Shown here: piece after piece, positions 1,308 through 26,283 of the stretch
Position numbering within the stretch: the stretch's first letter is position 1
Layout: each line of letters starts with the position of its first letter
Source: Alphaproteobacteria bacterium
GTDB taxonomy: Bacteria; Pseudomonadota; Alphaproteobacteria; Caulobacterales; Caulobacteraceae
Assembly: GCA_025359785.1 (NCBI GenBank)
Contig: JANYET010000035.1
Span: 1-64,000 of the forward strand
Direction: 5' to 3'
Length of the DNA: 64,000 nt
Translations under genes and position numbers: made by a program
Notes under the pieces: model-generated
Databases searched by the model: none
The model's input: the letters and a program-made list of their open reading frames with translations, nothing else
What the model was told of the DNA's origin: nothing

Positions 1308-1315
1308 GGCTCGCC

Positions 1316-1693: not shown

Positions 1694-1718
1694 GGTGGTT
1701 CTCCTTCCAAGTTGCCAC

Positions 1719-1862: not shown

Positions 1863-2020
1863 GTGCCAGACCTGCTCACCAATAGAAGACGTGAGTGACC
1901 GGAGCGACCTGAAGACCAACTTCATGGCCTTGGGCAATGCCGACAACGACGGGGACGTTTCCTTCGCATCCCAATCGCCGAGACAGCCCGAGTTGTCTTG
2001 GGCCGCTGACAATTGGCGGG

Positions 2021-6453: not shown

Positions 6454-6460
6454 ACGCGGC

Positions 6461-11813: not shown

Positions 11814-11978
11814 CCTGCCGATTGCTCGTCATTAGGTTTTTCAACGGCCGTTATTCAACAGGACCTATTCCTAGTGAAACTTACCGCTATTCAATTTACG
11901 CCGATACTGTAGCGACGGCTTCGACACTTCGCCAATCGAAAGTTGGCTCCGCACACAGGCAATACAGAACGCCGGCCT

Positions 11979-12881
11979 TCATGGAGTGGCCCCCTGTTGA
12001 GCGTGAAGCCAATCCACGGCGGTCTGCGCCTTGCCGGCGGCGGTGAAGATGGCGCGAGTGTCGCCCTTCAGCACCTTGAGCCAGGATTCGATATAGCCAG
12101 CATGGTCCAAGCGAGGCTCTGAGGATAGGCCGAGGTCGGCACAGAGAAATGCCGCACCCAACTCGGCGACGAGTTCCTCAACAGCGTAGGATTCCGAGCC
12201 GAAGCGGCCGGTCAGATCACGGTCAAGCCGAGCCTTTGCGCCGGTGGCATGGACGCACTCGTGACCACGCGTGGCGTAGTAAGCGTTTGCGTCCTTGAAG
12301 AGACCGAATGGCGGCAGGTGCACGGTGTCGGTGCTGGGTCGATAGAAGGCCTGGCTGCCCTCATGGTGGACCTCGATCGGCAGGCCGGTGAAGAAGGCTT
12401 CGGCCCTGGCATCACGCTCATTGTCGGACAGGATCGAAACGCTCGGCGGCGTAAAACCCTCGACCTGCGCGGCGTTGAAGACGTGGTAGGCGCGGGCCAG
12501 GATTGGGCGGTGGCCATCGCTGGCTTCCCCCTCCACGGCGGTTTCGGGGGCATCTGAGCCTCGTTCACCGAGTTGCTTCCAGAAGACCACGGTGGCGGAC
12601 TTTTCGCCGGCGCGGACAGGGTGGCCCAGCTCTCGCCACTGCTTGAAGGTTGCCCAGTAGGGGGTGGTGAACCCCTTCGAATTTCCGATCAGCCAGAGAA
12701 GAACGGTGTTGATCCCGCGATAGCTGCGATTGCTGGCGACGTTCTTCGGCATGCCCGGCACGCTCTGCCAGGGAAGGCTGTAGGTCGCTGCTCCAGCTTC
12801 GATGGCGGCGACGATCTGGTTGGTAACGTCGGCGTAGAGATCGCTCTTCGGCCGTTCGTGAGATGACTGCTTCTGGTACAT
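11979..12881 (-). CDS. ardC: ArdC-like antirestriction protein
   Basis: A 300-aa protein. The N-terminal domain (DLYADVTNQIVAAIEAG, then YRGINTVLLW) is the ssDNA-binding domain of ArdC (DUF1738), and the C-terminal part is a zincin-like metallopeptidase with HECVH at residues 207-211. ArdC of IncW plasmids protects incoming plasmid DNA from host restriction during conjugation. ATG at 12881 is chosen for its upstream AAGGGAGCC and the family start; the longer frame to 13007 lies in leader repeat copy 3. Carrying both a restriction-like operon and an antirestriction gene is common on mobile elements. Confidence 0.87.
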   Translation of the reverse strand: MYQKQSSHERPKSDLYADVTNQIVAAIEAGAATYSLPWQSVPGMPKNVASNRSYRGINTVLLWLIGNSKGFTTPYWATFKQWRELGHPVRAGEKSATVVFWKQLGERGSDAPETAVEGEASDGHRPILARAYHVFNAAQVEGFTPPSVSILSDNERDARAEAFFTGLPIEVHHEGSQAFYRPSTDTVHLPPFGLFKDANAYYATRGHECVHATGAKARLDRDLTGRFGSESYAVEELVAELGAAFLCADLGLSSEPRLDHAGYIESWLKVLKGDTRAIFTAAGKAQTAVDWLHAQQGATP

Positions 12882-12957
12882 GGTTCGGCTCCCTTTTGAG
12901 CCGCGCGCGATTGCGCGGCTGACGGAGCCAGGTCGCCCGCCCGTAGCAGGCGGACCG

Positions 12958-13045
12958 GCAAACGCCGCGGCCTTGGCCGAGCCGCGTGGCGGGGCGGAGC
13001 TGCACAAGCCGCAGGTGCGGAAGCGAGCCGCGTTGCCGGGCCGGC
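12958..13045 (-). repeat. Leader repeat copy 3
   Basis: Upstream of ardC this stretch carries AGCTGCAC (12998-13005), GAAGCGAGCC and GTTGCCGGGCC (13032-13042), the same blocks in the same order as in copy 2 before the DUF3768 gene. It is shorter and more diverged. Three unrelated genes sharing one leader points to a common control element. Confidence 0.5.
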
Positions 13046-13145
13046 ACGGGCGGGCATGGTTCCGCCGGTCAGCCGTGTTCGTGCGCAGAGATTTTGAGCC
13101 GAGCCCGCCGGAATTCAGATCCGAACCTCGGGCTAGTGAGCAGCT

Positions 13146-13613
13146 TTAGTAGTCCTCCAGATCGACAGACTGTTTGAAGTCAATCGACTGGCAGGGGCTC
13201 TTCCCCCGTGACAGAGGCGGGCCGTAGAGAAGGGCATACCGAAACAAGCCCTGCGCCAGTGCGGCGCTCAGCGGCGTCATGCTGTCGTTGGGGATGGATG
13301 CGTAGAACCGTCCACCCGAAGGCGGCAATTCGAGCACGCCCACGCAGAGTGGCCGCCAGTTCTTGTCCTGCTGCCACTCAAAGGGCGTCCACACGTCCCG
13401 CTGGCCCACGAGTTTGAACAGCGCCGGCCTTCCGGCGACTTTTGGAGGGAAGATGCAGGCAGTCGCCACCTCAACCTCGATGTGTTCCCACCAGGGCTCA
13501 TCCCGGTATCGAAAGTGATTCACTCCGAACGTGTATTTCGGAGCGAAATCGGTGATTTCAAAGATGAAGTGTTCCGGCAATGATTGCCGAACCTTTCGCG
13601 CTCTCTTGGCCAT
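13146..13613 (-). CDS. Hypothetical protein
   Basis: A 155-aa soluble protein rich in aromatic residues (PWWEHIEVEV, WTPFEWQQDKNW). It has no recognised domain, signal peptide or membrane segment. Its start at 13613 faces the nuclease gene that starts at 13659, so the 45-bp gap between them must hold two divergent promoters. The C-terminus is acidic (SVDLEDY). Codon use and a full-length frame support a real gene, but its function is unknown. Confidence 0.55.
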   Translation of the reverse strand: MAKRARKVRQSLPEHFIFEITDFAPKYTFGVNHFRYRDEPWWEHIEVEVATACIFPPKVAGRPALFKLVGQRDVWTPFEWQQDKNWRPLCVGVLELPPSGGRFYASIPNDSMTPLSAALAQGLFRYALLYGPPLSRGKSPCQSIDFKQSVDLEDY

Positions 13614-13658
13614 ACGATCTCCTTATCATCGCAACCTAAAGTCTACTATAAGTTGTTG

Positions 13659-15149
13659 ATGGCGCCACCGATCACAGCATCGCTGCTCTACGACCTCGTT
13701 CAGTGCCCTAAGCGGGTAGAGCTTGACCTGTTCGGCGATCCCAAAGATCGCAGCGAGGTGAGCCCGTTCGTTCAAATGCTTTGGGAGCGAGGCGCACTGT
13801 ACGAGCGTGAGGTAGTCTCAGGCGGTGACATGACGTTGCTCGATCTCTCCGGCGAGGACGCTGGTGCAAGAGAGCAGCTCACTCTGGATGCAATGCGACG
13901 CGGCGAGCCTCTGATCTACGGAGGCCGTATCTCGGCCGATGGCTTGCTCGGCGTGCCCGATCTCCTGCGCAGGGTCGGGTCCGCCTATGTGCCGGTCGAC
14001 ATCAAATCAGGCCGTGGAGAAGAAGGCAGCGACGATGGCGATGGGAAGCCGAAACTGCATTACGCGGTGCAGCTCGCGCTCTATGTGGACGTGTTGGAGC
14101 GCCTGGAACTCTCTGCCGGGCGATACGGGATCATCCTCGACGTCGCTGGCGAGGAGGTCGTCTACCATCTTGAGATGCCGCGTGGCGTCCGGATGGCCGA
14201 CACGTTGTGGGACGAATACCAATCCCATCTCGCTACCGCCCGCGCCATCGCCGATGAGACCCTGACTCTGAAGGGCGCTTCAGCCAGTTCCTGCAAGCTC
14301 TGCCATTGGTATTCCGCCTGCTCAACGGCTCTAAAAGAAGCCGACGATTTGACGCTCATTCCCATGCTTGGGCGCACCGTACGCGATGCGATGGAGGCCA
14401 GTGTGCCGACAGTCGCGGCGCTCGCGTCGAGCGACCTCTCCGACTTTCTCGTGAAGGGCAAACCCATCTTCAAGGGTGTCGGAGCCGAGCGGCTCGCGAC
14501 GTTTCAGGCACGGGCGAAACTGCTTACCGATCCGCTCGCCACGCCGTACCTGAAGGCTCCGATTGCCCTGCCGTTTTCCGAGGTCGAGTTCTTCTTCGAC
14601 ATCGAAGTCGATCCGCTGAGGGACTTCACCTACCTGCACGGGATCGTGGAAAGGCGCGGCGGCGATAGCGCCAACGAGCGCTTCATCGCCTTCTTCACCG
14701 ACGACGAGACCGCCGAGTCGGAATGCGATGCCTTCGCCAGGTCGGTCGCCTACCTCAACAGCGAGCCATCGGCGACAATCTGGTACTATTCGAAATACGA
14801 GCGGACGCTCTACCGGAAGCTTCGGGCGCGCTATCCGGACGTTTGCTCGGCGCAGGACATCGAAAAGCTGTTCGATGCCCAGCGCGCCATCGACCTCTAT
14901 AACGACGTGGTAACGAAGGCGACGGAGTGGCCAACGCACGACCATTCGATCAAGACCCTGGCGAAGTATCTCGGCTTTTCATGGCGAGATTCGAACCCCT
15001 CCGGGGCCGCTTCCATCGAATGGTTTGACCGCTGGGTGCGGGAGCGCGACCCGGCGGTAAAGGCCCGAATCCTCGACTACAATGAGGACGATTGCAAAGC
15101 GACCCGAGTGCTGCTCGATGGCATTCGCGGACTGACGATCGAAGGCTGA
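13659..15149 (+). CDS. TM0106-type RecB-like putative nuclease
   Basis: A 496-aa protein. The N-terminal half begins with ITASLLYDLVQCPKRVELD and includes PVDIKSG, a RecB/Cas4-like nuclease core. SCKLCHWYSAC near residue 215 is a Cys cluster of the kind that binds an Fe-S centre. The C-terminal half has FFDIEVDPL, YYSKYERTLYRKL and ILDYNEDDC, an RNase H/DnaQ-like 3'-5' exonuclease domain. This fits the TM0106 RecB-like family, whose biological role is not established. ATG at 13659 is chosen because the longer frame would overlap the divergent gene. No clear ribosome site precedes it; a TACTAT stretch 15 bp upstream may be a -10 box of a near-leaderless transcript. Confidence 0.78.
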   Translation: MAPPITASLLYDLVQCPKRVELDLFGDPKDRSEVSPFVQMLWERGALYEREVVSGGDMTLLDLSGEDAGAREQLTLDAMRRGEPLIYGGRISADGLLGVPDLLRRVGSAYVPVDIKSGRGEEGSDDGDGKPKLHYAVQLALYVDVLERLELSAGRYGIILDVAGEEVVYHLEMPRGVRMADTLWDEYQSHLATARAIADETLTLKGASASSCKLCHWYSACSTALKEADDLTLIPMLGRTVRDAMEASVPTVAALASSDLSDFLVKGKPIFKGVGAERLATFQARAKLLTDPLATPYLKAPIALPFSEVEFFFDIEVDPLRDFTYLHGIVERRGGDSANERFIAFFTDDETAESECDAFARSVAYLNSEPSATIWYYSKYERTLYRKLRARYPDVCSAQDIEKLFDAQRAIDLYNDVVTKATEWPTHDHSIKTLAKYLGFSWRDSNPSGAASIEWFDRWVRERDPAVKARILDYNEDDCKATRVLLDGIRGLTIEG

Positions 15150-15152
15150 CGC

Positions 15153-15170
15153 CATACATCGAGATGTATG
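15153..15170. promoter_or_regulatory. 18-bp palindrome, operator candidate A
   Basis: CATACATC and GATGTATG are perfect 8-bp inverted repeats with a 2-bp spacer. They lie 4 bp after the nuclease stop codon. A close relative lies at 15372-15389. Confidence 0.5.
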
Positions 15171-15371
15171 GGCCTGGTCGTGGGCAGGGATAGCTGCCGG
15201 CTTGGACGCGCTGTGCCTTCGGCGCGTAGTCGTTGAGCGACGTCTTAGCCTCGGGGCGTTGCGGGGTGTCCCCGCTGGAAGGGGTCGGGCGAGCCTGGAT
15301 GGCTCGACCGCAGGGGAAGGCCTTCCCCTCCCGGCTTCTGCCTAACTCACGAAAGCCGGCGCAGTCGTTCC

Positions 15372-15389
15372 ATACATTGCAACGTATGA
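15372..15389. promoter_or_regulatory. 18-bp palindrome, operator candidate B
   Basis: CATACATTGCAACGTATG is a palindrome with one mismatched pair and the same outer CATAC/GTATG arms as candidate A, 219 bp away. It is upstream of the relaxase gene, so it could serve its control. Confidence 0.5.
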
Positions 15390-15698
15390 AGACTGCCATG
15401 AGCGCGAGGGTGTCGGGGCGTGCGCTGAACTCTCTGACCAGGGTGCGGGACGGCGTCCTGCTCCAGCGTTGGAAGCCCGCCTAAACGCTGGCTGCGGGGG
15501 TGAAACGGGGGCGGCACGGAGCCCCCTGACGACCGCCCGAACTGTTGCTGACAAGACTCACACTCAGATTGTGTGGATCGGAAACGCAACCAAAACGAGA
15601 ACACTTAGTGAGCACGTCGCGCCAGCGATGTATAAGTGCACACATACTGGTTTTCTTCTGTTCTCGTTCACATCTGAAAAGGTGAAAGGGCGGTTGTA

Positions 15699-16685
15699 AT
15701 GGCGGTCTACCACCTCAGACTAAAGGTGCATTCCCGCTCTCTCGGCCGTGCTGCGAGGGAGGGCGGAGCTACCCGCAGATCAGCAGTGGCCGCTGCCGCA
15801 TATCGCTCAGGTCAACGCCTCTACGACGATTCCCAGGGCCGGTGGTTCAGCTTCGACAAACCCGACGTCGTCCATACCGAGATCCTCGCGCCGGGTCCTG
15901 ACGCGCCGGCATGGGTGTTCGACCGGCAGACACTTTGGAACATGGTGGAGAAATCCGAGAAGCGGCAGGATGCGCAGCTCTGTCGCGAGATAGAACTCAC
16001 CCTCCCCCGCGAACTCACCCCCGATCAGCGCATCAGCCTGGTCCGCGAATTCGTGCAGGGGGAGTTCGTGAGCAAGGGCATGGTCGCCGACTTTTCGGTG
16101 CATGTGCCTGACGCCGCGGACGGGCGCGAGCAACCGCACGCGCATGTTCTCCTCACCCTGCGTCGGCTCGATCCTGCGACGCCGACGGGCTTCGCGGCGA
16201 CCAAGGATCGGGACTGGAACGAGCCTGAAAATATCGCGCGCCTCGTGGCCGAGGCGCGCAAGCGTTTCAACGACACAGAGCTTCCCGAGGACAAGGAAGC
16301 GCTCGATGCAGCGGAGGCACTCCGCAACGTGAATGTGTGGCGCCGTGAGTGGGCCGAACACGCAAACGCGGCGCTCGCCGACGCGGGCTCGGAGGCCCGC
16401 ATCGACCATCGGACGCTTGAAGCGCAGGGCATCCACCGCATCCCTCAGATCAGCCTGGGCATCGCCCGTCACATCGAGCGCGCATACAACTACGTGCGCG
16501 ACCGCGTCACCCAATGGGTGTCGATCAAGAAGCGGGCCGACCTCTTTAAGGAGGCCCAGCATTACCAGCAGCGCGACCCGGCCAAGTTGGCGGATTTCGT
16601 AATGCGCCTATCTGAGATGGCGGAGAGCTTCACCGCTCAGTTCCGCAAAGAACCGCCAACACCAGAGGCCGACTATGAGCGATGA
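15699..16685 (+). CDS. mobA: MobA/MobL family relaxase (MOBQ type)
   Basis: A 328-aa relaxase domain protein. The N-terminal start MAVYHLRLKVHSRSLGR with SAVAAAAYRSGQ is the MobA/MobL signature; Tyr in AAYRSG is the likely nicking residue. PHAHVLL holds the HUH metal-binding pair His147 and His149. It would nick oriT in one strand and pilot it into the recipient. It lacks the long helicase or primase extension of TraA proteins, as expected for a mobilizable element. GAAAGGGCGG precedes the ATG. The next gene starts within its last codons (11-bp overlap), so the two are co-translated. Confidence 0.87.
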   Translation: MAVYHLRLKVHSRSLGRAAREGGATRRSAVAAAAYRSGQRLYDDSQGRWFSFDKPDVVHTEILAPGPDAPAWVFDRQTLWNMVEKSEKRQDAQLCREIELTLPRELTPDQRISLVREFVQGEFVSKGMVADFSVHVPDAADGREQPHAHVLLTLRRLDPATPTGFAATKDRDWNEPENIARLVAEARKRFNDTELPEDKEALDAAEALRNVNVWRREWAEHANAALADAGSEARIDHRTLEAQGIHRIPQISLGIARHIERAYNYVRDRVTQWVSIKKRADLFKEAQHYQQRDPAKLADFVMRLSEMAESFTAQFRKEPPTPEADYER

Positions 16686-17160
16686 CTTCGACCAGGTGTT
16701 TGGAAGACGGCCGGAGGCGCGTCCGCGCTTCACGGAACGTGTCGTGCAGAGCCAGGCCTTCGGCGGGCGCGCTGATCCGGTCGCCGCAATGGCGCTCGAA
16801 GCAGCCACTGAGAATACGCCCCCCGGCCTCTACAAGGCCTATGGCTTCATCCCCTCTGGCACGGTCAACCAGAGCTGCGAAATCCGCAGCTGGGTTGACG
16901 GGACGGACGTCGCCGATGGGGTGGTGTTCTTCTACCGCCTGCTCATGCAGATCGGTTTCACCGGCACGAACGAGCTGAAGCTCATGCTGCCGGACAGCAT
17001 TGTCGTGCTGACCGGCCGGAACCTCGAACCGCTGCGCCTGGCGCTAACCCGCCAGCTCGCGACCTACATCCAGCAATACTCGAAACGGATTTGGCCAGCC
17101 CCCGTGCCGGGTGTCGACACGATGATCGAGCGAATCGAGATCATTCGACCCGGCGCTTAG
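16675..17160 (+). CDS. Hypothetical protein co-translated with relaxase
   Basis: A 161-aa soluble protein with no recognised domain. It overlaps the relaxase stop by 11 bp, so a role in mobilization (for example oriT binding or relaxase accessory) is plausible but only by context. The N-terminal 40 residues look disordered and basic; the rest, including DGVVFFYRLLMQIGF and a C-terminal helix, appears folded. Its stop overlaps the stop of the convergent STAND gene by 4 bp. Confidence 0.62.
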   Translation: MSDDFDQVFGRRPEARPRFTERVVQSQAFGGRADPVAAMALEAATENTPPGLYKAYGFIPSGTVNQSCEIRSWVDGTDVADGVVFFYRLLMQIGFTGTNELKLMLPDSIVVLTGRNLEPLRLALTRQLATYIQQYSKRIWPAPVPGVDTMIERIEIIRPGA

Positions 17161-19592
17161 GCAGAGCTCAGATTACGGAGCTTCTCGGCACAAGCCCGTT
17201 CTGCCCGTAATTCCTTCGCGCGCTGATAGAGTGGCAAGGCTTTCTCATAGTACGCTTTCGCGCTCTCTGGGCTGAGCGCGATTAGTTCAAGGTCGCCTAA
17301 AGCTTCGAGACAGATCGCCTCTTCCGAGAGGACGGAAGCCTGTCGGGCTAGCGCGAGCGCCTGTTCGTACAGATTGCGAGCAACGTCATAGCGAAAGCGC
17401 GCACGCGCCACGTCGCCTAATCCTTTGATGCAATTGGCGTGGCCCCACGTGAGGCCGACCCTCACAAAAATCGCGCACGCTGACTCAAAGGCTTTTTGAG
17501 CCGCATCAAGGTCTCCCTGCTCAAGGGCGATCTGTCCGAGGTGGCGGATACAGCCCGCTTCGCTGAGGTAGGCATCTGACTTTTGACTCAGCGTCAGTGC
17601 CTCATGGAAGAAGCTGGTCGCCTCATCGTAGTCAGCACGATCAAGTGCCAGCTCTCCAAGTCGCATTAGGCAGGTCGATTCACCGATCAGGAAGTCTATC
17701 TCGCGAAAGAGTTCCAGAGACTCGCGATAGGCGCTCGTCGCCTCCTCGGCCTCTAACCGTGCCCTGGCCACGTTTCCTAACGCGTGGATACAAAGGCCTT
17801 GCCCCTTCCGGTCGCCGATCTGTCGGTAGAAGGAGAGAGCCTCCTCATAGGCAGTCCAGGCGGTGTCTGGATCGCCTCGATAAAATGCGAGCTGAGCATC
17901 CAGATAGAGACATTTTGATTGGGTTTCAGGGTCGGCACCGGCCCTTCCGCTCTCAGCTACTTCTTTGAAGATGGTCGTAGAAATCCCGCGTAATATCGCG
18001 ACCTGATAGATCGTGTCAGCTACCGCCAAGAAAGGGGCGCGCCGCTTCGCAAGTAATTCTCCCCGGATCACACTCTCGACGTTTCGAAAGTCCTGCTCCA
18101 CGCGAACCGCCGCATCACTGTCGCCCTTTTGCATAATCCCTTCGCCCAATTCCTTTGTCAGAGCGACGAAGTGGTTGGTTACGTCGAGTGCGTCGGTTTC
18201 CGTGGTCTTACGGTAGCGCGTCGCGAAGTCACGGATGGGCGGCAGCAGGTCGATGCGCGTGTTGCGCTCCACCGCTAGGCCAAGGTTCAAGAGCCGCTCT
18301 TCGGCGGCGAACGCGTGCTCACCTAGAAGTGCTTCAACACTGTCCCTTGAAAGCCCCTGCGGAAGAGCACCGAGTAGGCTGAACAGACGCATGGCAGGTG
18401 TGGAAATTCGGCTCGACTGGATTGAGAGCCGTATCGAGCGGGCCAGCGATGTCTGCGGGCCGGGCTCGAACGCCGGATTGGTGGCGAACTCAACTCCGAT
18501 GCGACCCCATTCGCGCCAGAGTGGCTCCAGGGCTGTGCGGCCGTGAGCGCGTCGGGCGACAAGCTGAATCGCAAGAGGGATGCCCCCCAGCGCGTCGAGA
18601 AATTGCTGCAAATGTTGATCGCTCAGCACCCACCCGCCAGCGACCTGAGCGAACAATTTCTCGCTCTCAATGTGGGGTAGCGGCTCGACATAGTATGATG
18701 TCCAGCCGGGCTCCTTCACCCATTCACGTCCCCGAAATGAGGCGAGGAGCGAAAGGCCTGGGGTTTGGGCAAGTTCGCTTAGCGTCGCTTCGGTTGTGCC
18801 TCGCTGGTCTGCCGGCTCCCAAGGCGTTTCAAGATTATCGAGGACGAGTAGGCTTGGCTTCGTATCAAGACTAGCCAGTGCGGCGGCCATGCCACCCGCT
18901 GGATCGCCTCCGATGCCGCGGATGATGGCTTCGCGCATAGCATCCGCCGTCATTGCTGTTTCCAGCGCGATGAACCAGCGACGTTCGCCGAAGCGCGCGG
19001 CGACGGAATGATGGTTCGCCACCGCCTTGGTTAGTTCGGTTTTGCCAATGCCTGGTCCGCCCTGGACGAGTATGGCCGCGCACGGTGTTGCGAGCACCTG
19101 CGCGAGGTCCTCGACTTCCACCGACCGACCGACAAATTGGCTCGTAGGCAACGGTAGTCGAGCACGACGCCCCAGCGAGGTAGCGGCCGCCTCTCTCTTT
19201 TTCGCCCTTATGACCGCTTTCTGACGGCGCCGATCTCGCTCTAGTGCGCGCTCCCTCGATAGCGCACGTTCGAGGTCCTCCTTCCACGTAAGGAGGTTCG
19301 GGTCGTCGCCGAACAGCTCCGCAAAGATCCGAACGATGCGATCGGACAGTGCCGCCTTCGGAAGCCCGCCTGGCTTTCTCCAATTCCGAAGGCTCCTAGC
19401 AGCGTCGCCTGCAGCGAAACCCGGTTCGTGAACAAGGCTCGCAAAGGACTCCATGATCCAGGGCGTATTCGCTTTCGTCGTGCTGCAATTGGGCCGGGTT
19501 CCCCAATTCAAGTGCCAATCCAGCAGCTCGCCGAAGGTCAAATCCCGAGAATAGGACGAAGGGTGCGCTTCAACGTTCGGGCCATTCGGCAT
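17157..19592 (-). CDS. STAND ATPase (NB-ARC with TPR repeats)
   Basis: An 811-aa protein. Residues 1-110 form a helical domain, followed by a basic coiled-coil stretch, then FVGR and GGPGIGKTE (Walker A, 178-185) and LLVLDNLET (Walker B) of an NB-ARC-type switch, and about 300 residues of TPR-like helices (repeated A-x-x-Y-x-x-A-L patterns). STAND proteins act as sensors that oligomerize on ligand binding; many bacterial ones are anti-phage sensors. The TPRs would be the sensor and the N-terminal domain the effector or partner site. ATG at 19592 is chosen with AAGGCGG upstream; a TTG at 19637 is possible. A defence role is inferred from family and location. Confidence 0.77.
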   Translation of the reverse strand: MPNGPNVEAHPSSYSRDLTFGELLDWHLNWGTRPNCSTTKANTPWIMESFASLVHEPGFAAGDAARSLRNWRKPGGLPKAALSDRIVRIFAELFGDDPNLLTWKEDLERALSRERALERDRRRQKAVIRAKKREAAATSLGRRARLPLPTSQFVGRSVEVEDLAQVLATPCAAILVQGGPGIGKTELTKAVANHHSVAARFGERRWFIALETAMTADAMREAIIRGIGGDPAGGMAAALASLDTKPSLLVLDNLETPWEPADQRGTTEATLSELAQTPGLSLLASFRGREWVKEPGWTSYYVEPLPHIESEKLFAQVAGGWVLSDQHLQQFLDALGGIPLAIQLVARRAHGRTALEPLWREWGRIGVEFATNPAFEPGPQTSLARSIRLSIQSSRISTPAMRLFSLLGALPQGLSRDSVEALLGEHAFAAEERLLNLGLAVERNTRIDLLPPIRDFATRYRKTTETDALDVTNHFVALTKELGEGIMQKGDSDAAVRVEQDFRNVESVIRGELLAKRRAPFLAVADTIYQVAILRGISTTIFKEVAESGRAGADPETQSKCLYLDAQLAFYRGDPDTAWTAYEEALSFYRQIGDRKGQGLCIHALGNVARARLEAEEATSAYRESLELFREIDFLIGESTCLMRLGELALDRADYDEATSFFHEALTLSQKSDAYLSEAGCIRHLGQIALEQGDLDAAQKAFESACAIFVRVGLTWGHANCIKGLGDVARARFRYDVARNLYEQALALARQASVLSEEAICLEALGDLELIALSPESAKAYYEKALPLYQRAKELRAERACAEKLRNLSSA

Positions 19593-19702
19593 CGGTCGCC
19601 GCCTTTTGCAGATTCGGAGCCTGCGAATACGACACAATATTCTTGAATATTTGAGAAGATTATATCAGTATTCGCAAGTGATACTGTGATTTTTGGAGTT
19701 TT
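19593..19702. promoter_or_regulatory. Divergent AT-rich promoter region with nested dyads
   Basis: The 110-bp gap between divergent genes is unusually AT-rich. AATATTC-TT-GAATATT (19636-19651) is a perfect palindrome. It is enclosed by an inverted pair GCGAATAC (19623-19630) and GTATTCGC (19668-19675). This layout suits binding of a dimeric regulator controlling both the STAND gene and the 103-aa gene. Confidence 0.5.
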
Positions 19703-20014
19703 ATGAGCATTTCTAGCGCGGAGATTTCGGTATTATTTGGAGTTGCCGAACTTGCAAAGCGTTGCGGGCTTAAGCCCGGAGATGCCGAGGCATCGATTGG
19801 TACTGATGAAGATGCCCGGGGCCACGATCAAGCCTGCAGACTGACTTTTGTGCTCCGTTATGATCCCGAAACCGACGAGCGGATGGAGAAATTTTGCAAG
19901 CTTATGGGTCTGAAGGGTGAGGACATCGAGAACCTCTACGCAGCTTACACCGATGATATGCAGGACCGCGTCGACAAGGCCCTCGCGGGCGCACCGCGCC
20001 CACGCCACCGCTAA
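19703..20014 (+). CDS. Hypothetical protein divergent to STAND ATPase
   Basis: A 103-aa acidic, helical protein. The segment DERMEKFCKLMGLKGEDIEN and a following YTDDMQDRVDKAL helix suggest a small folded unit; the C-terminus is short and basic. It has no recognised family. GGAG lies 8 bp before the ATG. It shares a palindrome-rich promoter region with the STAND ATPase, so joint regulation or a partner or antagonist role is conceivable. Confidence 0.6.
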   Translation: MSISSAEISVLFGVAELAKRCGLKPGDAEASIGTDEDARGHDQACRLTFVLRYDPETDERMEKFCKLMGLKGEDIENLYAAYTDDMQDRVDKALAGAPRPRHR

Positions 20015-20135
20015 CTAGCTTCGCATCTTCGTTTCCGCCTGATTCCGCCTGTTTCCCTAAACTCGCGTCTGAACGCGGCGCATCTCTCCGCTTGCCCAAT
20101 CACGGGCGGCCCAATTGGCGGGCAGGAGAACTGAA

Positions 20136-20333
20136 ATGACCGACAAGATGCACCCCGGCGTTAAGCACGCCGCCTTCGTGGGGCTGAAAGCCCTCCACGG
20201 CTTCAAAACCGCTCACGGCCCGGCGAAGCTCGCCTCCCGCATCCCGGGCGTCGGGCCGGCCCTGGGCCTGGTCGTGCTCGTCGCCGGCGCGGTGGCTGGC
20301 GCGGCGGCCGGCATCAACGAGTACGAAGGCTAG
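20136..20333 (+). CDS. Small membrane protein
   Basis: A 65-aa protein with one C-terminal transmembrane helix (GPALGLVVLVAGAVAGAAAG). The ATG at 20136 follows GGCAGGAGAACTGAA, a good ribosome site, so the upstream in-frame ATG at 20115 is not used. It opens a plus-strand run of small membrane proteins around the coupling ATPase. Function unknown. Confidence 0.6.
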   Translation: MTDKMHPGVKHAAFVGLKALHGFKTAHGPAKLASRIPGVGPALGLVVLVAGAVAGAAAGINEYEG

Positions 20334-20340
20334 TTGCGCG

Positions 20341-20550
20341 ATGGTGTTCCGCTGCCCCAACTGCGACGGCGCGATGTGGAAACGCGAACGTGGTCTCGTT
20401 CGCGACATCGACTTCTGCCTGACCTGCGGCTTCACGTGCGAAGCCCTCGGGACGGGCCTGGCCATGGCGAGCGCGGTTTCCGCGTTCGTCCTGGGCCTCG
20501 CCTCTGCCGCGTATGCGGAAGTGGGCGAGGTCGATCAGCACCAGACTTAG
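20341..20550 (+). CDS. Zinc-ribbon small membrane protein
   Basis: A 69-aa protein. CPNC (residues 5-8) and CLTC about 18 residues later form a zinc-ribbon, followed by one hydrophobic helix (LAMASAVSAFVLGLASAAYA). It starts 7 bp after the previous gene. Such proteins may anchor or regulate membrane complexes; here a link to the coupling protein downstream is suggested only by position. Confidence 0.6.
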   Translation: MVFRCPNCDGAMWKRERGLVRDIDFCLTCGFTCEALGTGLAMASAVSAFVLGLASAAYAEVGEVDQHQT

Positions 20551-20672
20551 GCGACTGATCGGCGGTCTGGCCCCCGGCTGCAGACGGGGCACCCAGACGG
20601 AAATTGCCGCTTCCACCGACGGCGCAATGGCGTCGCCCAACATCTAATCCGCATCGAACGGAGGGTCCAGCT

Positions 20673-22268
20673 ATGGCCCAACTGGTTTCGCGCGCCCGCA
20701 GCGTCTGGTCGGGTTCGCTCGACGATACGCTGCTGTGGCTGTCGCCCAGCGACGCCTTCCGCATCCGTGATGCGTGCGAGAACGTGCTCGTCCTCGGCGG
20801 CATTGGCAGCGGTAAGACCAGCGGCCCAGGCAAAACGCTGCGCCGCGCTATGTTCCGCGCCGGCTTCGGGGCGTTGGTGCTGGTCACCAAGCCCGACGAA
20901 GTCACGGCGTGCCTGGAAGATGCGTACTCCGCCAACCGCCAGTCGTCGGTGATCCGAGTTGATGGCCGCAGCGGCTTCAACCTGATCGAACACGAGCTGG
21001 CCCGCCAAGGTATCGCTGGCATCAACACGGTCGTCGAATCCCTGATGCGCATCCTCGAGATCGTGCGGGCCGCCGTGCCGAATGGCGGCCGTACGGGCGA
21101 GGCGTTCTGGGAAAACTCCTTCCGCCAACTCCTGCGCATGACGGTGCCGATCCTCTACGCCGCCTTCGGCTCGGTGCGGATCAGCGAAATCATCCGCTTC
21201 ATCCAGACCGCCCCGGCGAGCGCGGCGCAGCTCGTCGATGAAGCGTGGCGCGCTTCTTCCTTCATGTACCAGGTGATGCACCAGGCCCGGACCGAACCGT
21301 CGGTGCCACTCGATGATGACGGCTTCGGCCGGATCGCCAGCTACTGGCAGAACGAGTTCGCGCAGCTTGATAACAAGTTGCGCACGAGCATCACGAGCAC
21401 GCTCTCGACGTCGCTCGACCGCTTCACTCATGGCCGGCTGAAGCGCCTCTTCTGCGAGGACACGACCTTCGTGCCCGAGCTGACGATGCTCGGCGCGATC
21501 ATCGTCCTCGATATGTCCGCCCTCGAATGGAACGAGGACGGCATCATCGCGCAACAGATCATCAAGTTCGCGACGCAGCGCGCGCTGCTGTCCCGCAACG
21601 GCCTGCCCGAGCAATTCCAGCTGCGGCCCGTCGCCATCTTCGTCGACGAGGCGCAGACCTTCTTCAACACGTTCGACCGCGAGTTCATGTCGCTGTCGCG
21701 TTCGTCGCGGTGCGCCACGGTCTGCCTGACGCAGTCGATCCCCAGCGTTATCGCCACCATCGGCGGCGACAACGCCAAGCACCAGGCCGACGCGCTGCTC
21801 GCGCAGTCGGGGACGAAGATCTTCTGCAACAACTCCTGCCCGGAAACGAACCGCTTCGCCGCGGACACGGTGGGCCGTGCGATCCAGCGCCGCGCGAGCT
21901 TCAGCGAGAGCGAAAGCTTCGGTCGCTCTTCCGGCCTCAACATGGGCGAAAGCACGAGCTGGGGAACCAGCTCCGGCGGGGGCTATACCAGCGACGGTCG
22001 TGGCGGCGGGTCGTCGTCCGTCAACTGGAGCAGCAACAGCGGCGGCGGCGATAGCAGCGGCCGCAACCGTGGCGTCAACAGCGGCCAAAGCACCAGCGGC
22101 GGCTACAGCGAGGCGATGGACTACGAGATCGAGCCTGCTGAATTCAGCCGCTCTCTTCTGACCGGCGGCCCCGCCAACGGCGGCATCGTCAGCGCCGTCT
22201 GGTTCCAGGCTGGCCGCCGGTTCGACCTGACCGGCCGCCCCTGGCTTTACGCGAGCTTTCAACAATGA
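20673..22268 (+). CDS. VirD4/TraD-like coupling ATPase
   Basis: A 531-aa P-loop ATPase. LGGIGSGKTSG (Walker A) is at residues 42-49, and VAIFVDEAQTFF is the Walker B. The order and the LTQSIPS segment match type IV coupling proteins of the VirD4/TraD (TraM-recognition) family, which link the relaxosome to the transfer channel. No clear N-terminal membrane helices are present; the separate 180-aa membrane protein downstream, overlapping by 4 bp, may supply the anchor. Residues about 425-490 are a Ser/Gly-rich low-complexity linker, which is unusual. ATG at 20673 follows GGAGGG; the upstream frame to 20604 is rejected. Confidence 0.82.
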   Translation: MAQLVSRARSVWSGSLDDTLLWLSPSDAFRIRDACENVLVLGGIGSGKTSGPGKTLRRAMFRAGFGALVLVTKPDEVTACLEDAYSANRQSSVIRVDGRSGFNLIEHELARQGIAGINTVVESLMRILEIVRAAVPNGGRTGEAFWENSFRQLLRMTVPILYAAFGSVRISEIIRFIQTAPASAAQLVDEAWRASSFMYQVMHQARTEPSVPLDDDGFGRIASYWQNEFAQLDNKLRTSITSTLSTSLDRFTHGRLKRLFCEDTTFVPELTMLGAIIVLDMSALEWNEDGIIAQQIIKFATQRALLSRNGLPEQFQLRPVAIFVDEAQTFFNTFDREFMSLSRSSRCATVCLTQSIPSVIATIGGDNAKHQADALLAQSGTKIFCNNSCPETNRFAADTVGRAIQRRASFSESESFGRSSGLNMGESTSWGTSSGGGYTSDGRGGGSSSVNWSSNSGGGDSSGRNRGVNSGQSTSGGYSEAMDYEIEPAEFSRSLLTGGPANGGIVSAVWFQAGRRFDLTGRPWLYASFQQ

Positions 22269-22807
22269 GGCGCCCCAGCACTCAAACGCTCATCGTCGGC
22301 TATCCGGTCGTGACGATCCCCCTCGCTCTCTTCGGGGGATTCTTCGGCTTCGAGGTCGTGATCGGCAACGCCCCGATCTGGGTCGGCGTCATCACGTTCA
22401 TCTACTGCGGCTGGCTCCACCAATGCTACGAAACGGCGTCGCGCTATCGCGCCTGGCTGCGCGAGTGGAACGCACTCGATCCCGACTATCAGCCTGGTCG
22501 GCCTGTTCTGCGCACGTTGCAGTTCATCGGCTCGCTGGTGGTCGCGGCCGCGCTCTTCTTCGCCTGGCTGAAACTCGGGCCGGCTTTTGCCGATCCGCAG
22601 TCGCCGGCCCGCGCCATCGCGGCTCTCGCGGTCGTCGTGTGGGTGCTGGCCCTGGCTGCGCGCCTGCTTTTCCACCGCCGCAAGAAGCGCGCTGTCACCA
22701 AGGATTGGATTGTGACGCAGGCGGTTGAACGGCCGCTGCCTGCGCCCTCGGCGGACGAGGCCTACGCCTCCCTGCCGGACTATTGCCGGCCGCTTCTGAA
22801 GCTCTAG
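22265..22807 (+). CDS. Membrane protein paired with coupling ATPase
   Basis: A 180-aa integral membrane protein with four predicted helices in two pairs (about residues 10-30, 36-52, 84-102 and 115-134), then a basic cytoplasmic tail. Its ATG overlaps the coupling-protein stop (ATGA). Because that ATPase lacks its own membrane anchor, this protein is a good candidate for the anchoring subunit. No named family is recognised. Confidence 0.65.
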   Translation: MRRPSTQTLIVGYPVVTIPLALFGGFFGFEVVIGNAPIWVGVITFIYCGWLHQCYETASRYRAWLREWNALDPDYQPGRPVLRTLQFIGSLVVAAALFFAWLKLGPAFADPQSPARAIAALAVVVWVLALAARLLFHRRKKRAVTKDWIVTQAVERPLPAPSADEAYASLPDYCRPLLKL

Positions 22808-22825
22808 CGAGAGAAGGAAAAGTGA

Positions 22826-23161
22826 ATGGCTAAACCTCGACACCACGGCGAAACGGCCTGGGACAAGCCCGAACACATTCCCAAGCCTGATCGCCAACAG
22901 AGTGCCATCGGCGAGTTCTTTCGCGATCAGATCACTGAGGCGCGCGACGACCTCTTCAATGTTCTGATCCTCGAAGGGTGGTCTGGGCGTCCGGCCAACC
23001 TGCAGAGCCGCTCCGACGACACTTCGATTTGGACGGAACGTACCGAAGAGAAGCAGGCCGACAAACCAAAAGACCCCTTCGAAAGCCGCTGGTCCGAGCA
23101 GGACCAGGCGCGGACGAAGGGCGATCCCGAGCATGTCCAGGAACTCGATTTCGGCCGGTAA
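22826..23161 (+). CDS. Hypothetical charged protein
   Basis: A 111-aa highly charged, probably partly disordered protein (many Asp, Glu, Lys, Arg and Pro). GAGAGAAGGAAAAG precedes the ATG. It lies in the plus-strand group with the coupling ATPase and membrane proteins, 18 bp after the previous stop. No family is recognised. Confidence 0.55.
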   Translation: MAKPRHHGETAWDKPEHIPKPDRQQSAIGEFFRDQITEARDDLFNVLILEGWSGRPANLQSRSDDTSIWTERTEEKQADKPKDPFESRWSEQDQARTKGDPEHVQELDFGR

Positions 23162-23234
23162 TGGCGTCCCGCCAACTGGCTTCACCCGCGCTTGCGCCCA
23201 TTCGGACGCGACGCACTCAGAAGGAGACTGAGCT

Positions 23235-23447
23235 ATGAACCATCAAGAGCTGAAGGCCCCCGACAAGGGCACGTGGGCCGTCATCGGCTTCCTGTTCTCA
23301 TTCATCATTACCCAGCACTTCGGCGAGGCCGGCTCCATGATCGGCGCCATTGGCGTGATCCTCATTGGAGGATGGGCCATTTCGACGGTTTGCCGCTGGG
23401 CCTGGTTCACCATCAAGCAGCGGATCGACTATCAACCCCGCCGTTAG
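23235..23447 (+). CDS. Small two-helix membrane protein
   Basis: A 70-aa protein with two hydrophobic segments (WAVIGFLFSFIITQHF and MIGAIGVILIGGWAISTV) and a basic C-terminus. AAGGAGACTGAGCT precedes the ATG. It is the last plus-strand gene of the transfer-like cluster before a hairpin at 23484-23511. Function unknown. Confidence 0.6.
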   Translation: MNHQELKAPDKGTWAVIGFLFSFIITQHFGEAGSMIGAIGVILIGGWAISTVCRWAWFTIKQRIDYQPRR

Positions 23448-23483
23448 AGCGGGGACCGCCAAATCCATGTTCGCTTCGATTCA

Positions 23484-23511
23484 ATGGCGGCGCTTCTCGG
23501 AGCGTCGCCAT
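23484..23511. terminator. Hairpin between convergent genes
   Basis: ATGGCG-G-CGCT and AGCG-T-CGCCAT form a long stem with one mismatch and a 6-base loop, followed by CTTT. It lies between the convergent 70-aa and DUF736 genes, so it may end transcription from both sides. Confidence 0.5.
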
Positions 23512-23558
23512 CTTTCGTTCGCGAGAATGACGGGGCGGCTGGGCCGCCCCGCTGGCTG

Positions 23559-23852
23559 TCAGCGACTCCACAGGAGTTGATGCTTGCCGTTCTCCAGCTC
23601 GATCAGCCGGCAGTAGATCGCACCTCCGAAGCTTGGGTCGTCCAGCTTGACGGACAGGTATGGCCTCTCGTTGTCGCTGGTCTTCGCCCAGGCTGCGCCA
23701 ATCTCAGCGCCTGCCGCATAGAGCCGGTAGTCCGGCATCATCGGCTTGGTCTTGTTGAGCGGCTGAAAGGTCACCTTCGACTTCAGCGCCAGAGTGGTGA
23801 TCGCGCCGACGAGTTTGTCGCCGTCGCGAGTGAAGGTTCCGATATTGGCCAT
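23559..23852 (-). CDS. DUF736 family protein
   Basis: A 97-aa protein beginning MANIGTFTRDGDKLVGAI and containing PDYRLYAAGAEIGAAW, the pattern of DUF736, a family common on alphaproteobacterial plasmids and integrative elements. Function unknown. AAAGGAGG lies at ideal spacing before ATG 23852, predicting strong translation. Confidence 0.8.
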   Translation of the reverse strand: MANIGTFTRDGDKLVGAITTLALKSKVTFQPLNKTKPMMPDYRLYAAGAEIGAAWAKTSDNERPYLSVKLDDPSFGGAIYCRLIELENGKHQLLWSR

Positions 23853-24310
23853 CTGTGCCTCCTTTGTTTGGAAGCCGCACCGCGCGGCCTCGTATGCGCA
23901 CCGTCAGGAGCCGATGGCGCGGCGGGATCACGCCGTCAGGCGGTACGTGAATTTTGGAGCGATAGCGTTCGCGAGGAATGGCGGAGCCAGGGGAAAAACT
24001 CTCGTTGAACCCGACGCGCGAGGCTCCAGGTTCGCGCAAATACGAAGTCCGCTGTGTGGCTCTTACCAAGGCCAGCCAGGCGAATTCGGCCCAGATCAGG
24101 CACGTAAAATTCCTCCGCTTCGCTCTCACACTGGCGATCGGCTGAGTGAGGGTGCCTACCCAGCAAATCAGGCAAGGCGTCTTGCTTCGGATGCTCCTGC
24201 AGCATCGCCCGCGGCGCGGTGCTGGCGCAGCCTGGTCCTGACCTGCAAGCGGGTCGGCGGGAGTTCCTCATCCGTCGCGCAATGTGCGCGCGGGCAACAG
24301 AGGAGGACTT
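23853..24310. other. Gap upstream of DUF736
   Basis: No firm gene in 458 bases. A minus-strand frame with ATG at 24205 ending at 23936 encodes 89 residues with plausible composition but no ribosome site or family; it may be a gene remnant. GATGCT-CCTGC-AGCATC near 24189 is a small hairpin. The rest looks like promoter and leader for the DUF736 gene (minus) and the small peptide at 24311 (plus). Confidence 0.35.
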
Positions 24311-24406
24311 ATGACATGCACTGACATCACGGCCCTGATCACCGCAGCGGCGGCGCTCTTCGCGGCACTTGCGAAGTTCGTCAGCGCCTTACGGCGACGC
24401 ACGTAG
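24311..24406 (+). CDS. 31-aa hydrophobic peptide
   Basis: ATG at 24311 follows AGGAGGACTT, a near-perfect ribosome site. The peptide has an acidic start, an Ala/Leu-rich helix (ALITAAAALFAALAKFV) and an Arg-rich tail. Its stop codon lies inside the stem of a terminator-like hairpin. A short membrane-active peptide with strong translation and an immediate terminator resembles type I toxin peptides, but no antisense RNA is shown. It lies 29 bp from the tRNA gene. Too short to be sure. Confidence 0.42.
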   Translation: MTCTDITALITAAAALFAALAKFVSALRRRT

Positions 24407-24425
24407 CGTCGCCGCCGGATTTTTG
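24393..24425 (+). terminator. Rho-independent terminator of the 31-aa peptide gene
   Basis: GGCGACGC (24393-24400) and GCGTCGCC (24406-24413) form a perfect 8-bp stem with loop ACGTA, followed by GCCGGATTTTT. It also lies just past the 3' end of the minus-strand tRNA gene. Confidence 0.7.
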
Positions 24426-24434
24426 GCGCTGGGG

Positions 24435-24731
24435 TGGTGCGGGCGGCCGGAATCGAACCGGCATGGGGTTACCCCCGACGGATTTTCATACCACTTCGGC
24501 TTTCGCCGCCGCGCATAGCGCGTTCGTGGTCTGGACTATCCCTTCACCGTGCGCCGATAGCTCGGCGTGTAGGTGCTGCCCGTCTAGTCTCTACACCTTC
24601 CCCGCAAGGGGCTTGGCTCGGGATTGCCATCTCAGGGTTCCCCGAATTTGAGCAGTTCTACGTCTCGGGTTTCCCCGAGCGCACTCAAGTTTGGCTAAGT
24701 CCGTTGCGTCTACCAGTTCCGCCACGCCCGC
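24435..24731 (-). tRNA. tRNA-Leu(UAA) interrupted by a group I intron
   Basis: Exon 1 is 24697-24731 and exon 2 is 24435-24486, joined to an 87-nt tRNA including encoded CCA. Acceptor strands GCGGGCG and CGCCCGC, anticodon stem ACGGA and TCCGT, loop CTTAAAA, a long variable arm with GGGG/CCCC pairing and a TTCGATT T-loop all fold correctly. The anticodon is UAA. The D-arm block GCGGAACTGGTAGACGC is identical to that of the split host tRNA, but the acceptor, anticodon stem, variable and T arms differ, so it is not a duplicate of the host gene. It probably replaces the host tRNA broken by integration. It lies 32 bp behind the integrase gene on the same strand. Confidence 0.95.
24487..24696 (-). 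ncRNA. Group I self-splicing intron, tRNA-Leu(UAA) type
   Basis: The 210-nt intron lies after the first anticodon base (U|AA), the site used by the well-known cyanobacterial and plastid tRNA-Leu(UAA) introns. It ends in G. Exon ACTT pairs with internal guide GAGT, giving the U-G pair at the 5' splice site. GGCAATCCCGAGCCAAGCC matches the P4-P6 region (elements P and Q), GAGACTAGACGGGCAGC the R element, and GGGATAGTCCAGACC the S element forming P7. No homing endonuclease is encoded. This points to subgroup IC3 and autocatalytic splicing, which is inferred from family knowledge. Confidence 0.95.
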
Positions 24732-24743
24732 AAAGCCGTCGCA

Positions 24744-24772
24744 TCTATAGTCTGACGATCTGGTTAGGCCAA
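24744..24772 (-). promoter_or_regulatory. Promoter candidate of the replacement tRNA
   Basis: On the minus strand TTGGCC and TATAGA are separated by exactly 17 bp, and the -10 box ends 12 bp before the tRNA. The -35 overlaps the last integrase codons. This would let the tRNA be made independently of the integrase. Confidence 0.55.
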
Positions 24773-26074
24773 GCGCGATTTGCGGCTCTTGGCCCGAGTT
24801 TGAGGTTTTGGATTTTCCTCATCCTTGATTTTTGAAGGTGATCTCTTCGGCTTCCGAACATTGATGGCCGATGCATCAAGTGTGTTCTTGATATGAGACG
24901 CGTAGAAGTTCTCGATCATTTCAACACTGGTTCGGCAGTTCTTGGCGATCTGATAGATATCCGCACCTTCCATCAACCGCATGCAGATGTAGGTGTGCCG
25001 TAAGCTGTAAGCGGTGCGGCGCTGGCCCTCGCGGTCCGTCCGCAAATCAAGTTCGGCAAGAAGGGTGTTGAACAGCTCCCGTTGGAAGGATGGGAAGAGC
25101 CTGTCTGTGGGCTGCCCCTTGTTCCGCTCCTTGAGGCGTTTGAAGGGCTGCACTGCCCCAGGCATGCTTTTGCAGTAACCGGTGCCGCGCTTCCCGCGCA
25201 CCGCGATTTCGAGGATGCGTTCGCCTGTCGATTCATCGGTGACGATGTCGACATCTCGAAACTCGACGCGGAGGGCTTCGTCGGGGCGAAGCCCGGTGTT
25301 CACCGCGAAGAGAATGTAGTCATGAAGGTTCTCGCCTGCCGTCCGCCAGCGCTCCTTCTTGGGGTTCTTCGCGCGTTCGCGCGATGCCTCGTAGAGCTGC
25401 TTGTACTCGGCCGGAGAGAACCAGGCCCGGTGACTGATTTTGCCGGATTTCTTGTAGGGAGCCGACATGTCCGGCAGGGCGGCAAGCCAGCCCTTCCGGT
25501 TAGCTGTTTTGAGGATCTGACGAAGGGTGACCATTTCCTGGTGAAGGGTGCTGCGCGACGGCCGCTTCACCGCGCCCGTTTTGCTGTCCTTCCGGGAGGT
25601 GGCCCGGTGGACCCGATAATCCTGGATAAGGCCGGCGTTGATTTCCGAAAGTGCCTTCTCACCGAAGAAGGGCATTAGGTGCACCCGGATATGGGTGTCC
25701 TTCTGGGTCATGTAGCGGTCGCTGCGCTCCCCCTCGGTGATGACCGTGGTTTCCTTGGTGAAGGCGTCAGCCGCTTCACGGAAGGTTGGCCCGGTTGGGC
25801 GAGGCTTGCGTCGCCGGTCGGCGACATCCTCGTTGGCCGCGTTCGCGTCCAAGGTTGAGAACAAGGGAAGACCGCGACGGCGGCGGCGCTCCTCAGCGTA
25901 GCGCTCCATGTACCAGTCGCGGGCAAACTCCTTGGCGAGAGCGAGGCTTTCTTCCTTGGTGCTTTCACGATGATTGCGACGACCGAGGTACGTCGAGCAT
26001 TGCCAGAAACGACTGTTCTCCCGTCGATAGACGTGCAGGCGGCCGTCCATGAGCGCGTGCTTCTCTGACTGCAT
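24764..26074 (-). CDS. int: Tyrosine recombinase (phage-type integrase)
   Basis: A 436-aa integrase. The C-terminal catalytic domain has Arg in NTGLRPDEALR, the box YSLRHT (Arg359, His360; Tyr356 replaces the usual His) and Tyr391 in ENFYASH as nucleophile. The N-terminal half carries the arm- and core-binding domains. ATG at 26074 follows AAGGGAGGTCAGAC; the longer frame to 26107 would run through the TGTGTAAG repeats. It is 118 bp from the right core repeat and reads away from it, in the same direction as the split host tRNA, so the captured tRNA promoter may read into it. It should catalyse integration into and excision from the tRNA-Leu anticodon loop. Confidence 0.92.
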   Translation of the reverse strand: MQSEKHALMDGRLHVYRRENSRFWQCSTYLGRRNHRESTKEESLALAKEFARDWYMERYAEERRRRRGLPLFSTLDANAANEDVADRRRKPRPTGPTFREAADAFTKETTVITEGERSDRYMTQKDTHIRVHLMPFFGEKALSEINAGLIQDYRVHRATSRKDSKTGAVKRPSRSTLHQEMVTLRQILKTANRKGWLAALPDMSAPYKKSGKISHRAWFSPAEYKQLYEASRERAKNPKKERWRTAGENLHDYILFAVNTGLRPDEALRVEFRDVDIVTDESTGERILEIAVRGKRGTGYCKSMPGAVQPFKRLKERNKGQPTDRLFPSFQRELFNTLLAELDLRTDREGQRRTAYSLRHTYICMRLMEGADIYQIAKNCRTSVEMIENFYASHIKNTLDASAINVRKPKRSPSKIKDEENPKPQTRAKSRKSRLA

Positions 26075-26095
26075 GTCTGACCTCCCTTGGGAAAG

Positions 26096-26114
26096 TGTGT
26101 AAGACATGTGTAAG
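26096..26114. repeat. Right-end candidate integrase arm sites
   Basis: TGTGTAAG at 26096-26103 and 26107-26114, matching the pair at 184-203 near the left end. The sites lie directly upstream of the integrase gene, so integrase binding could also repress its own expression. Confidence 0.55.
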
Positions 26115-26191
26115 AGTATCAGAAATTCAAGTTTCGGTCTACTGAATTGTAAGTGTTGACCTTTTTATCGTATTTATTTTTTGGTTTTTGC

Positions 26192-26201
26192 TTTTAAGTC
26201 G
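26192..26201. other. Right attachment core (att)
   Basis: TTTTAAGTCG, identical to 116-125. The outer side (26202 onward) continues into the 5' half of tRNA-Leu; the inner side is AT-rich element DNA. Confidence 0.9.
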
Positions 26202-26230
26202 CTTGCGTCTACCAGTTCCGCCAAGTCCCC
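26192..26230 (-). pseudogene. 5' half of split host tRNA-Leu(UAA)
   Basis: Read on the minus strand it begins GGGGACT (acceptor), continues with the D-arm block GCGGAACTGGTAGACGC, then AAGCGA and the anticodon loop, and stops at the core. Joined to 70-125 it makes a complete tRNA-Leu(UAA). The host tRNA promoter must lie beyond 26230 and now reads toward the integrase gene. Confidence 0.93.
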
Positions 26231-26283
26231 ATCGGTCGGACAGGCTTAGCCGACGCGGGTTTGGCGGTCGATAGCTCGGCGGG

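Follow-up and report, generated by a model that had tools for sequence, protein, structure and literature searches.

The locus described here raises the question of why a mobile element that breaks a host tRNA-Leu(UAA) gene carries a replacement which is itself interrupted by a group I intron. It belongs to a wider problem, namely, why group I introns occur in the anticodons of certain bacterial tRNA genes; protection from integration has been proposed, an idea not easily tested in hosts. At this locus, the attacker, the loop that it attacks and the intron-bearing substitute all lie within 26 kb, and the intronless CAA, UAG, and Ser branches of the same integrase family serve as natural controls. 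At the level of sequence, the facts are a split host gene, a complete replacement, an intron with a conserved fold, and the recurrence of this design in related elements. From these facts, we suggest, with a probability of about 0.55, that the intron of the replacement, which is predicted to be self-splicing, would prevent the integrase of the element from cutting it.

The Integrated Element and the Split Host Gene

In the window (the whole 64-kb stretch of DNA that was analysed), the host tRNA-Leu(UAA) gene is broken by an integrated element of about 26.1 kb, delimited by its junction sequences at 116..26201 with both att cores included, and the break claimed in the sequence-only reading is thus confirmed. 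The 5′ half of the gene (26192..26231, minus strand) ends in the att core at 26201-26192, and the 3′ half (70..125, minus strand), which includes the T arm and CCA, starts with the att core at 125-116. The split lies inside the anticodon loop, and the 10-bp core common to both halves, CGACTTAAAA, is made up of the anticodon loop and three stem bases and stands as a direct repeat at both element ends. When the junction sequences were compared, neither of the two junctions was found to restore a complete host tRNA. The sequence GACTTAAAA occurs twice in the 64-kb window, at the two junctions only, and it is missing from the DNA of the replacement gene, although it would exist in its spliced RNA. 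The first base of the window, which is also that of the contig, is 70 nt away from the broken 3′ half. Directly upstream of the split tRNA there is a PEP-CTERM-motif gene (26284-27000), with related repeats near 30294-31291.

The ~26-kb element is probably an integrative mobilizable element, judging from its genes. Its tyrosine integrase of 447 aa (24764..26107, minus strand) matches the PHROG integrase profile (E 8e-29) and PF00589 at 25.3 bits, below the cut-off of 27.1, and residues R274, R370, H371, and Y402, which we take to be catalytic, are invariant in the eight sequences compared. The element also encodes a MobA/MobL (MobQ) relaxase (15699..16685, plus strand; PF03389, E 5.4e-66; NF041496, 223 bits for a cut-off of 200), a TraG/VirD4-like coupling protein (20604..22268, plus strand; PF12696, 23.9 bits for a cut-off of 22, with an NF045973 score far below its cut-off), and an ArdC-like anti-restriction protein (11979..13007, minus strand; PF08401, PF18818, and phrog_7245). 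Profile matches place restriction-modification and defence genes at 2021..11813 (minus strand), namely a type III restriction subunit, a type III methylase, an SMC-like ATPase, and a DrmD-like SNF2 helicase, which possibly form a composite defence system. A search of 50,697 phage records with the window integrase gave nothing at E 1e-20; its relatives include eight plasmid records (<60% identity) and three virus-collection contigs.

The Replacement tRNA Gene and Its Intron

The second, complete tRNA-Leu(UAA) that had been read on the element, together with a 210-nt group I intron at U|AA, was recovered by ARAGORN with introns allowed as a tRNA-Leu(taa) at 24435..24731 on the minus strand (L001 c[1417,1713]) having an intron of 210 nt; the default ARAGORN scan does not call this gene, whose near end lies 32 bp from the end of the integrase gene. 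The 5′ exon (24731-24697) and the 3′ exon (24486-24435) enclose the intron at 24487..24696 (minus strand), between U34 and A35 of the anticodon. That this tRNA differs in sequence from the broken host tRNA also holds, the bodies being unlike, with TGGGGAC in one acceptor and GCGGGCG in the other. The Rfam model Intron_gpI (RF00028) aligns from end to end with positions 24519-24706 (minus strand), scoring 47 bits (E 1.5e-10), which is 3 bits below the Rfam gathering score of 50, and a default Rfam scan at the gathering score does not list the window intron; in the same setting, the intron of the relative G158 scores 53 bits.

The preceding 5′ exon ends in U and the last base of the intron is G, and both features, which were part of the search pattern, are present in 50 of the 51 genes tried, the single miss being L177, whose record stops before its spare. 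In the fold of 32 aligned sequences (the window and 31 others) there are 66 predicted pairs, 5 of them belonging to the anticodon stem of the exons; 30 of the 66 show changes on both sides in at least one of the 32 sequences, and the P1 U-G pair at the 5′ splice site is present in all 32. The intron in the replacement tRNA-Leu(UAA) is a predicted self-splicing group I intron. A promoter-like site, TTGGCC-17-TATAGA (24744..24772, minus strand; 8 of 12 consensus matches), lies 12 nt 5′ of the tRNA, with its first box within the end of the integrase gene; by eye, a TTG first box and a TA second box occur at like places in 22 of 28 UAA spares, and a stricter scan called no promoter upstream of the replacement tRNA.

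The tRNA-Leu(UAA) Genes of the Host and Its Relatives

The sequence-only reading had proposed that the carried tRNA compensates for the damage of the insertion, to be checked by scanning the whole genome for other tRNA-Leu(UAA) genes. None was found in this assembly, a draft of 75 contigs, 99.6% complete, with 40 tRNA genes above the cut-off. According to ARAGORN, its leucine anticodons are UAG, CAA, CAG, GAG, and UAA, the latter solely as the intron-bearing gene, and a tRNA-Leu(UAA) pattern search of this genome gave one match, the broken half. Compensation is thus supported at the sequence level, and the same design recurs, since all 32 visible spares of UAA-target elements are UAA tRNAs with an intron. 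The TTA codon at 44724-44726, cited as one that would need this tRNA, is indeed in frame in an ORF at 43497-45299 with TPR repeats, although the gene name flmG given to that ORF was not confirmed.

We extended the comparison to a sample of 199 genomes, the window's own included. Integrase matches are present in 40 of them and group I introns in 30, and all 30 introns sit in tRNA-Leu(UAA) genes, judged by their exon ends. In 8 of these 30 genomes, the intron gene has a related integrase as its neighbour (within 1.5 kb in seven, 4.1 kb away in G010), next to a split intronless tRNA-Leu(UAA), and in the other 22 there is no related integrase within 1.5 kb of the intron gene. Our strict tRNA-Leu(UAA) pattern, which matches nothing in 96 genomes, found 104 places in 103 genomes; 97 of these were fetched, giving 92 intact and 5 split genes, and the remaining 7 are already-known splits. 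By this strict pattern, an intact match and an intron gene do not occur together in any of the 199 genomes. The resident tRNA-Leu(UAA) of the relatives is therefore mostly intronless, with 92 intact places against 22 intron genomes without a nearby integrase.

Among the resident intron-bearing genes, those of L084, L087, L088, L090, L091, L094, L096, and L097 come from genomes of the same genus as the window, have similar flanks and share one chromosomal locus, with no related integrase within 1.5 kb. The resident intron genes L075, L079, and L080 have the TTGG-17-TATA site of the elements upstream, and G063 (L281) also has an integrase fragment about 14 kb away; these are perhaps remains of elements. 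The upstream flank of L078, the resident intron gene of G074, aligns with the flank of the broken gene of the window (75% over 1083 nt), as does the flank of L095 from G070 (81% over 1114 nt), and thus, in sister species, the native locus seems to be occupied by intron genes. The elements may have taken their spares from such intron-bearing hosts, or may have left them there.

Targets and Spares across the Integrase Family

Of 539 relatives in the genome set, the family survey covered 80 loci, to which the loci of the 199 genomes and L280 were added. After the removal of repeated integrase DNA, 92 distinct integrases were kept of 111 matches, and 7 of these 92, having no readable class, were left out of the class counts. 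The family splits Leu(UAA), Leu(CAA), Ser(UGA), and Ser(CGA) genes after the anticodon loop, and in the Leu(UAG) branch, the spare is seen and a split half never. In most of the relatives examined, the anticodon loop of a tRNA-Leu or tRNA-Ser is split and a spare with the same anticodon is carried, usually just downstream. The anticodon of the spare equals that of the target in every readable element of the table, that is, in 28 UAA (3 of them named otherwise by ARAGORN and read as UAA from their exon ends), 31 CAA, 5 Ser(UGA), and 2 Ser(CGA) elements. Up to 5 kb from the integrase, there are 74 spares, of which 69 follow it at 25-165 bp and 5 at 0.6-4.1 kb.

In the table, the intron is present in 28/28 UAA spares and in none of the CAA (0/33), Ser UGA (0/6), Ser CGA (0/2), and UAG (0/5) spares. 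The later UAA finds L303, L304, L307, and L311 (the latter cut by the contig end inside its intron) all carry it, and the later UAG spare L310 is intronless, giving totals of 32/32 visible UAA spares and 0/47 spares of other Leu and Ser anticodons. Altogether, 34 UAA-target elements were seen, and the two not counted as having a visible spare are L300, a virus-collection contig with no tRNA in the 2.2 kb up to its end and no intron in its 44-kb record, and L177, whose record ends 1 nt after the integrase match. In the CAA branch, 10 of 43 elements have no co-directed spare within 5 kb: in L138, L168, and L053 (via the longer duplicates L183/L185), a CAA gene lies 6.4 to 9.2 kb away, in L202 it lies 87 bp away on the opposite strand, and the six others show no spare in the examined stretch, in some cases because the contig or locus ends. 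In L145 (5213-5260), an intronless CAA spare is cut off right after its TTCAAAA loop, possibly by a second integration, with no integrase within the next 1 kb.

Among wider relatives, 18 further loci (L302 and L314 having been excluded by a length filter) comprise 5 with a UAA target, 1 with a UAG spare, 6 near tRNA-Met, 1 near tRNA-Arg, and 5 (L301, L305, L317, L318, and L319) with neither a tRNA target nor a spare, and therefore, the arrangement of split gene plus spare is not universal there. The tRNA-Met near these more distant members is tRNA-Met(CAU). Two intron-bearing element records, L143 and L137, are named Nevskia and Gammaproteobacteria.

Several apparent exceptions and possible counterexamples were examined. 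L188, L195, and L197, called as intron-bearing Ser or Phe tRNAs, have the exon ends of Leu(UAA), and so do several relatives called as Phe(gaa) or Leu(aag), often with one D-loop base fewer. In G118 (L292), a UAA gene is split beside an unrelated integrase and a second intact copy lies 378 kb away. In G077 (L286) and G003 (L296), the UAA gene is split near contig ends, and no UAA tRNA was found among their fetched Leu-like genes and no intron in those assemblies. None of these three genomes, which have a split UAA gene and no intron found, showed an intronless UAA spare.

How the Intron Could Shield the Replacement

We propose that the integrase would exchange strands within the 7-nt anticodon loop CTTAAAA, and that the replacement tRNA would supply UUA decoding once its intron has spliced itself out. 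The intron would split the attacked loop in DNA and be absent from the mature RNA, so that the replacement would have the attacked loop in RNA without offering the attacked site in DNA. Its own spare would then be safe from both integration and recombination by the element, and the host would no longer be open to other elements of this type.

The comparison of loops bears on this proposal directly. Once spliced, the UAA spare has the 7-nt loop of the target in 27 of 28 cases and agrees with the target over the last 10 nt in 13 of the 28, and none of the 28 unspliced spares contains CTTAAAA; since the joined exons have the loop of the target, an intronless version would offer the att core. In all 31 intronless CAA spares located no more than 5 kb from the integrase, these 10 nt are not the same as in the target; the difference falls within the loop in 26 of them (25 with T32 for C32), and 5 keep the target loop and differ in the stem only. 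In L062, the remaining one of the 26, the exchange is reversed, the attacked gene having T32 and the spare C32. These spares thus avoid the att core, which suggests that a spare must not resemble its target in DNA, and the UAA elements would meet that need by means of an intron. The integrase tree also favours shielding: UAA targeting needs 9 changes on the full tree, 8 of them forced by starred branches, and an AU test in which 11 long-branch rows were omitted rejects a single UAA clade (p 1e-38).

Against shielding, the Ser spares keep the attacked loop without any intron in 7 of 7 cases (with the last 10 nt identical in 2 of 7), as do the 5 of 31 CAA spares just mentioned. In addition, an intronless CAA gene at L168:18768-18852, 7.5 kb from an integrase of the CAA-target class, has the last 10 nt of the target unchanged; it is the only one seen downstream there, falls outside the 31 and possibly is not the element's own. 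On balance, we consider shielding slightly favoured. A fuller version, which we put forward tentatively and at somewhat less than even odds, is that the intron works as camouflage in DNA, the gene being the same in RNA and unreadable to the integrase, and that it would protect the element, exclude rivals and, on decay of the element, seed chromosomal intron-bearing tRNA-Leu(UAA) genes.

Alternative Explanations

The most serious rival to shielding is one capture followed by exchange among elements, in which an ancestor captured an intron-bearing tRNA-Leu(UAA) and the spare spread with its intron as a passenger of no benefit; we regard this as quite possible, if improbable on balance. It is favoured by near-identical spares on distant integrases, L135 and L051 having 98.0% identity over tRNA plus intron and 66% in the integrase, and L174 and L182 having 96.6% and 69%, respectively. 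UAA spares are, on these identities, passed between elements, so that the UAA cases do not each count as a capture of their own. Starred branches yielded no more than 4 independent pairs, all of which agree (p 0.125). In the poorly supported intron tree (stars on 3 of 47 inner branches), the introns of elements and of residents are intermixed, which likewise favours a passenger, and the gene of the window pairs with L078 (SH-aLRT 86). Moreover, tRNA-Leu(UAA) genes elsewhere are known to contain group I introns, so a passenger would be expected solely in UAA spares, and the Ser spares and the L168 gene manage without an intron. On the other side, none of the 32 UAA spares is intronless although intronless residents prevail (92 places against 22 genomes), the tRNA bodies of the spares differ (L143, L137, and L303), and the CAA spares near the integrase, differing from the target over 10 nt in 31 of 31 cases, point to avoidance of the att core.

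A very improbable alternative is that the intron gates the supply of the tRNA, its splicing tracking the state of the cell so that the UUA-richer genes of the element would be expressed at certain times only. TTA makes up 12 of 6228 codons in ten ORFs of the element, 1 of 5708 in 13 long chromosomal ORFs of the window and 2 of 14561 elsewhere on the chromosome (ORFs from 30 other loci, some overlapping); the ORFs were picked by length, and in the 30-locus set also by third-position GC, without use of the annotation. TTA is thus commoner in the sampled element ORFs, among them 4696-6453 and 17157-19637, than in the chromosomal ones. Being richer in TTA, the element itself would depend on its own tRNA. 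However, the spare is the only UAA tRNA found, and chromosomal genes would suffer too, one chromosomal TTA being located in a DNA polymerase I ORF, and foreign genes are often richer in TTA for other reasons. Equally hard to credit is that the tRNA is ordinary cargo and another intact tRNA-Leu(UAA) hides in an assembly gap, for which the 75-contig draft and the position of the broken 3′ half 70 nt from the first base of the contig leave some room, given that the assembly is 99.6% complete, that none of the 30 intron genomes also matches the intact tRNA-Leu(UAA) pattern, and that a split gene with a matching spare recurs across the integrase family.

Comparison with Known Systems

The group I introns of cyanobacterial and plastid tRNA-Leu(UAA) are resident and mostly vertically inherited. 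Like the intron of the window, they sit in the same gene at U34|A35 and are small, with no room for an endonuclease gene, whereas here, the introns are found on mobile elements as well as in resident genes, mainly in Alphaproteobacteria. If shielding is true, it would name a vehicle that carries tRNA introns between bacteria. The family also shows integrases that exchange entire host tRNA genes for others.

In a search of literature titles and abstracts, with most subscription journals outside its scope, we found no intron-bearing replacement tRNAs on mobile elements. A replacement tRNA without the att motif (PMC8631192) and introns as protection (Randau and Soll, cited in PMC4390854) are already in print; a complete replacement tRNA whose intron interrupts the core used by the integrase did not come up in that search. 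Group I introns also occur in tmRNA (PMC11915505).

The closest known system is that of temperate Rhizobium phages of the vTRX32-1 type, whose insertion at a 12-bp motif splits a host tRNA-Leu and which bring along a complete tRNA-Leu; their describers proposed that the carried gene replaces the interrupted one and, being without the motif, blocks further integration into the phage (PMC8631192). Like the element of the window, these phages have a complete replacement tRNA of the same type inside, with the att motif absent from its DNA, and by the same reasoning, they support shielding. The difference is that the phage spare is without the motif, with no intron mentioned in the passages on it, whereas the spare of the window would keep the loop in its mature RNA and has its DNA split by the intron. 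Islander islands (PMC4383910) share the tyrosine integrase, the tRNA target and the crossover at the anticodon loop; they carry a tRNA fragment that regenerates the target, whereas the element of the window regenerates it at neither junction and has the full gene inside. Lastly, Randau and Soll, as cited in PMC4390854, proposed that introns and split genes protect tRNA genes from mobile elements by removing the integration site; the protection discussed there concerns host genes, whereas here, it is the element itself that carries the interrupted gene.
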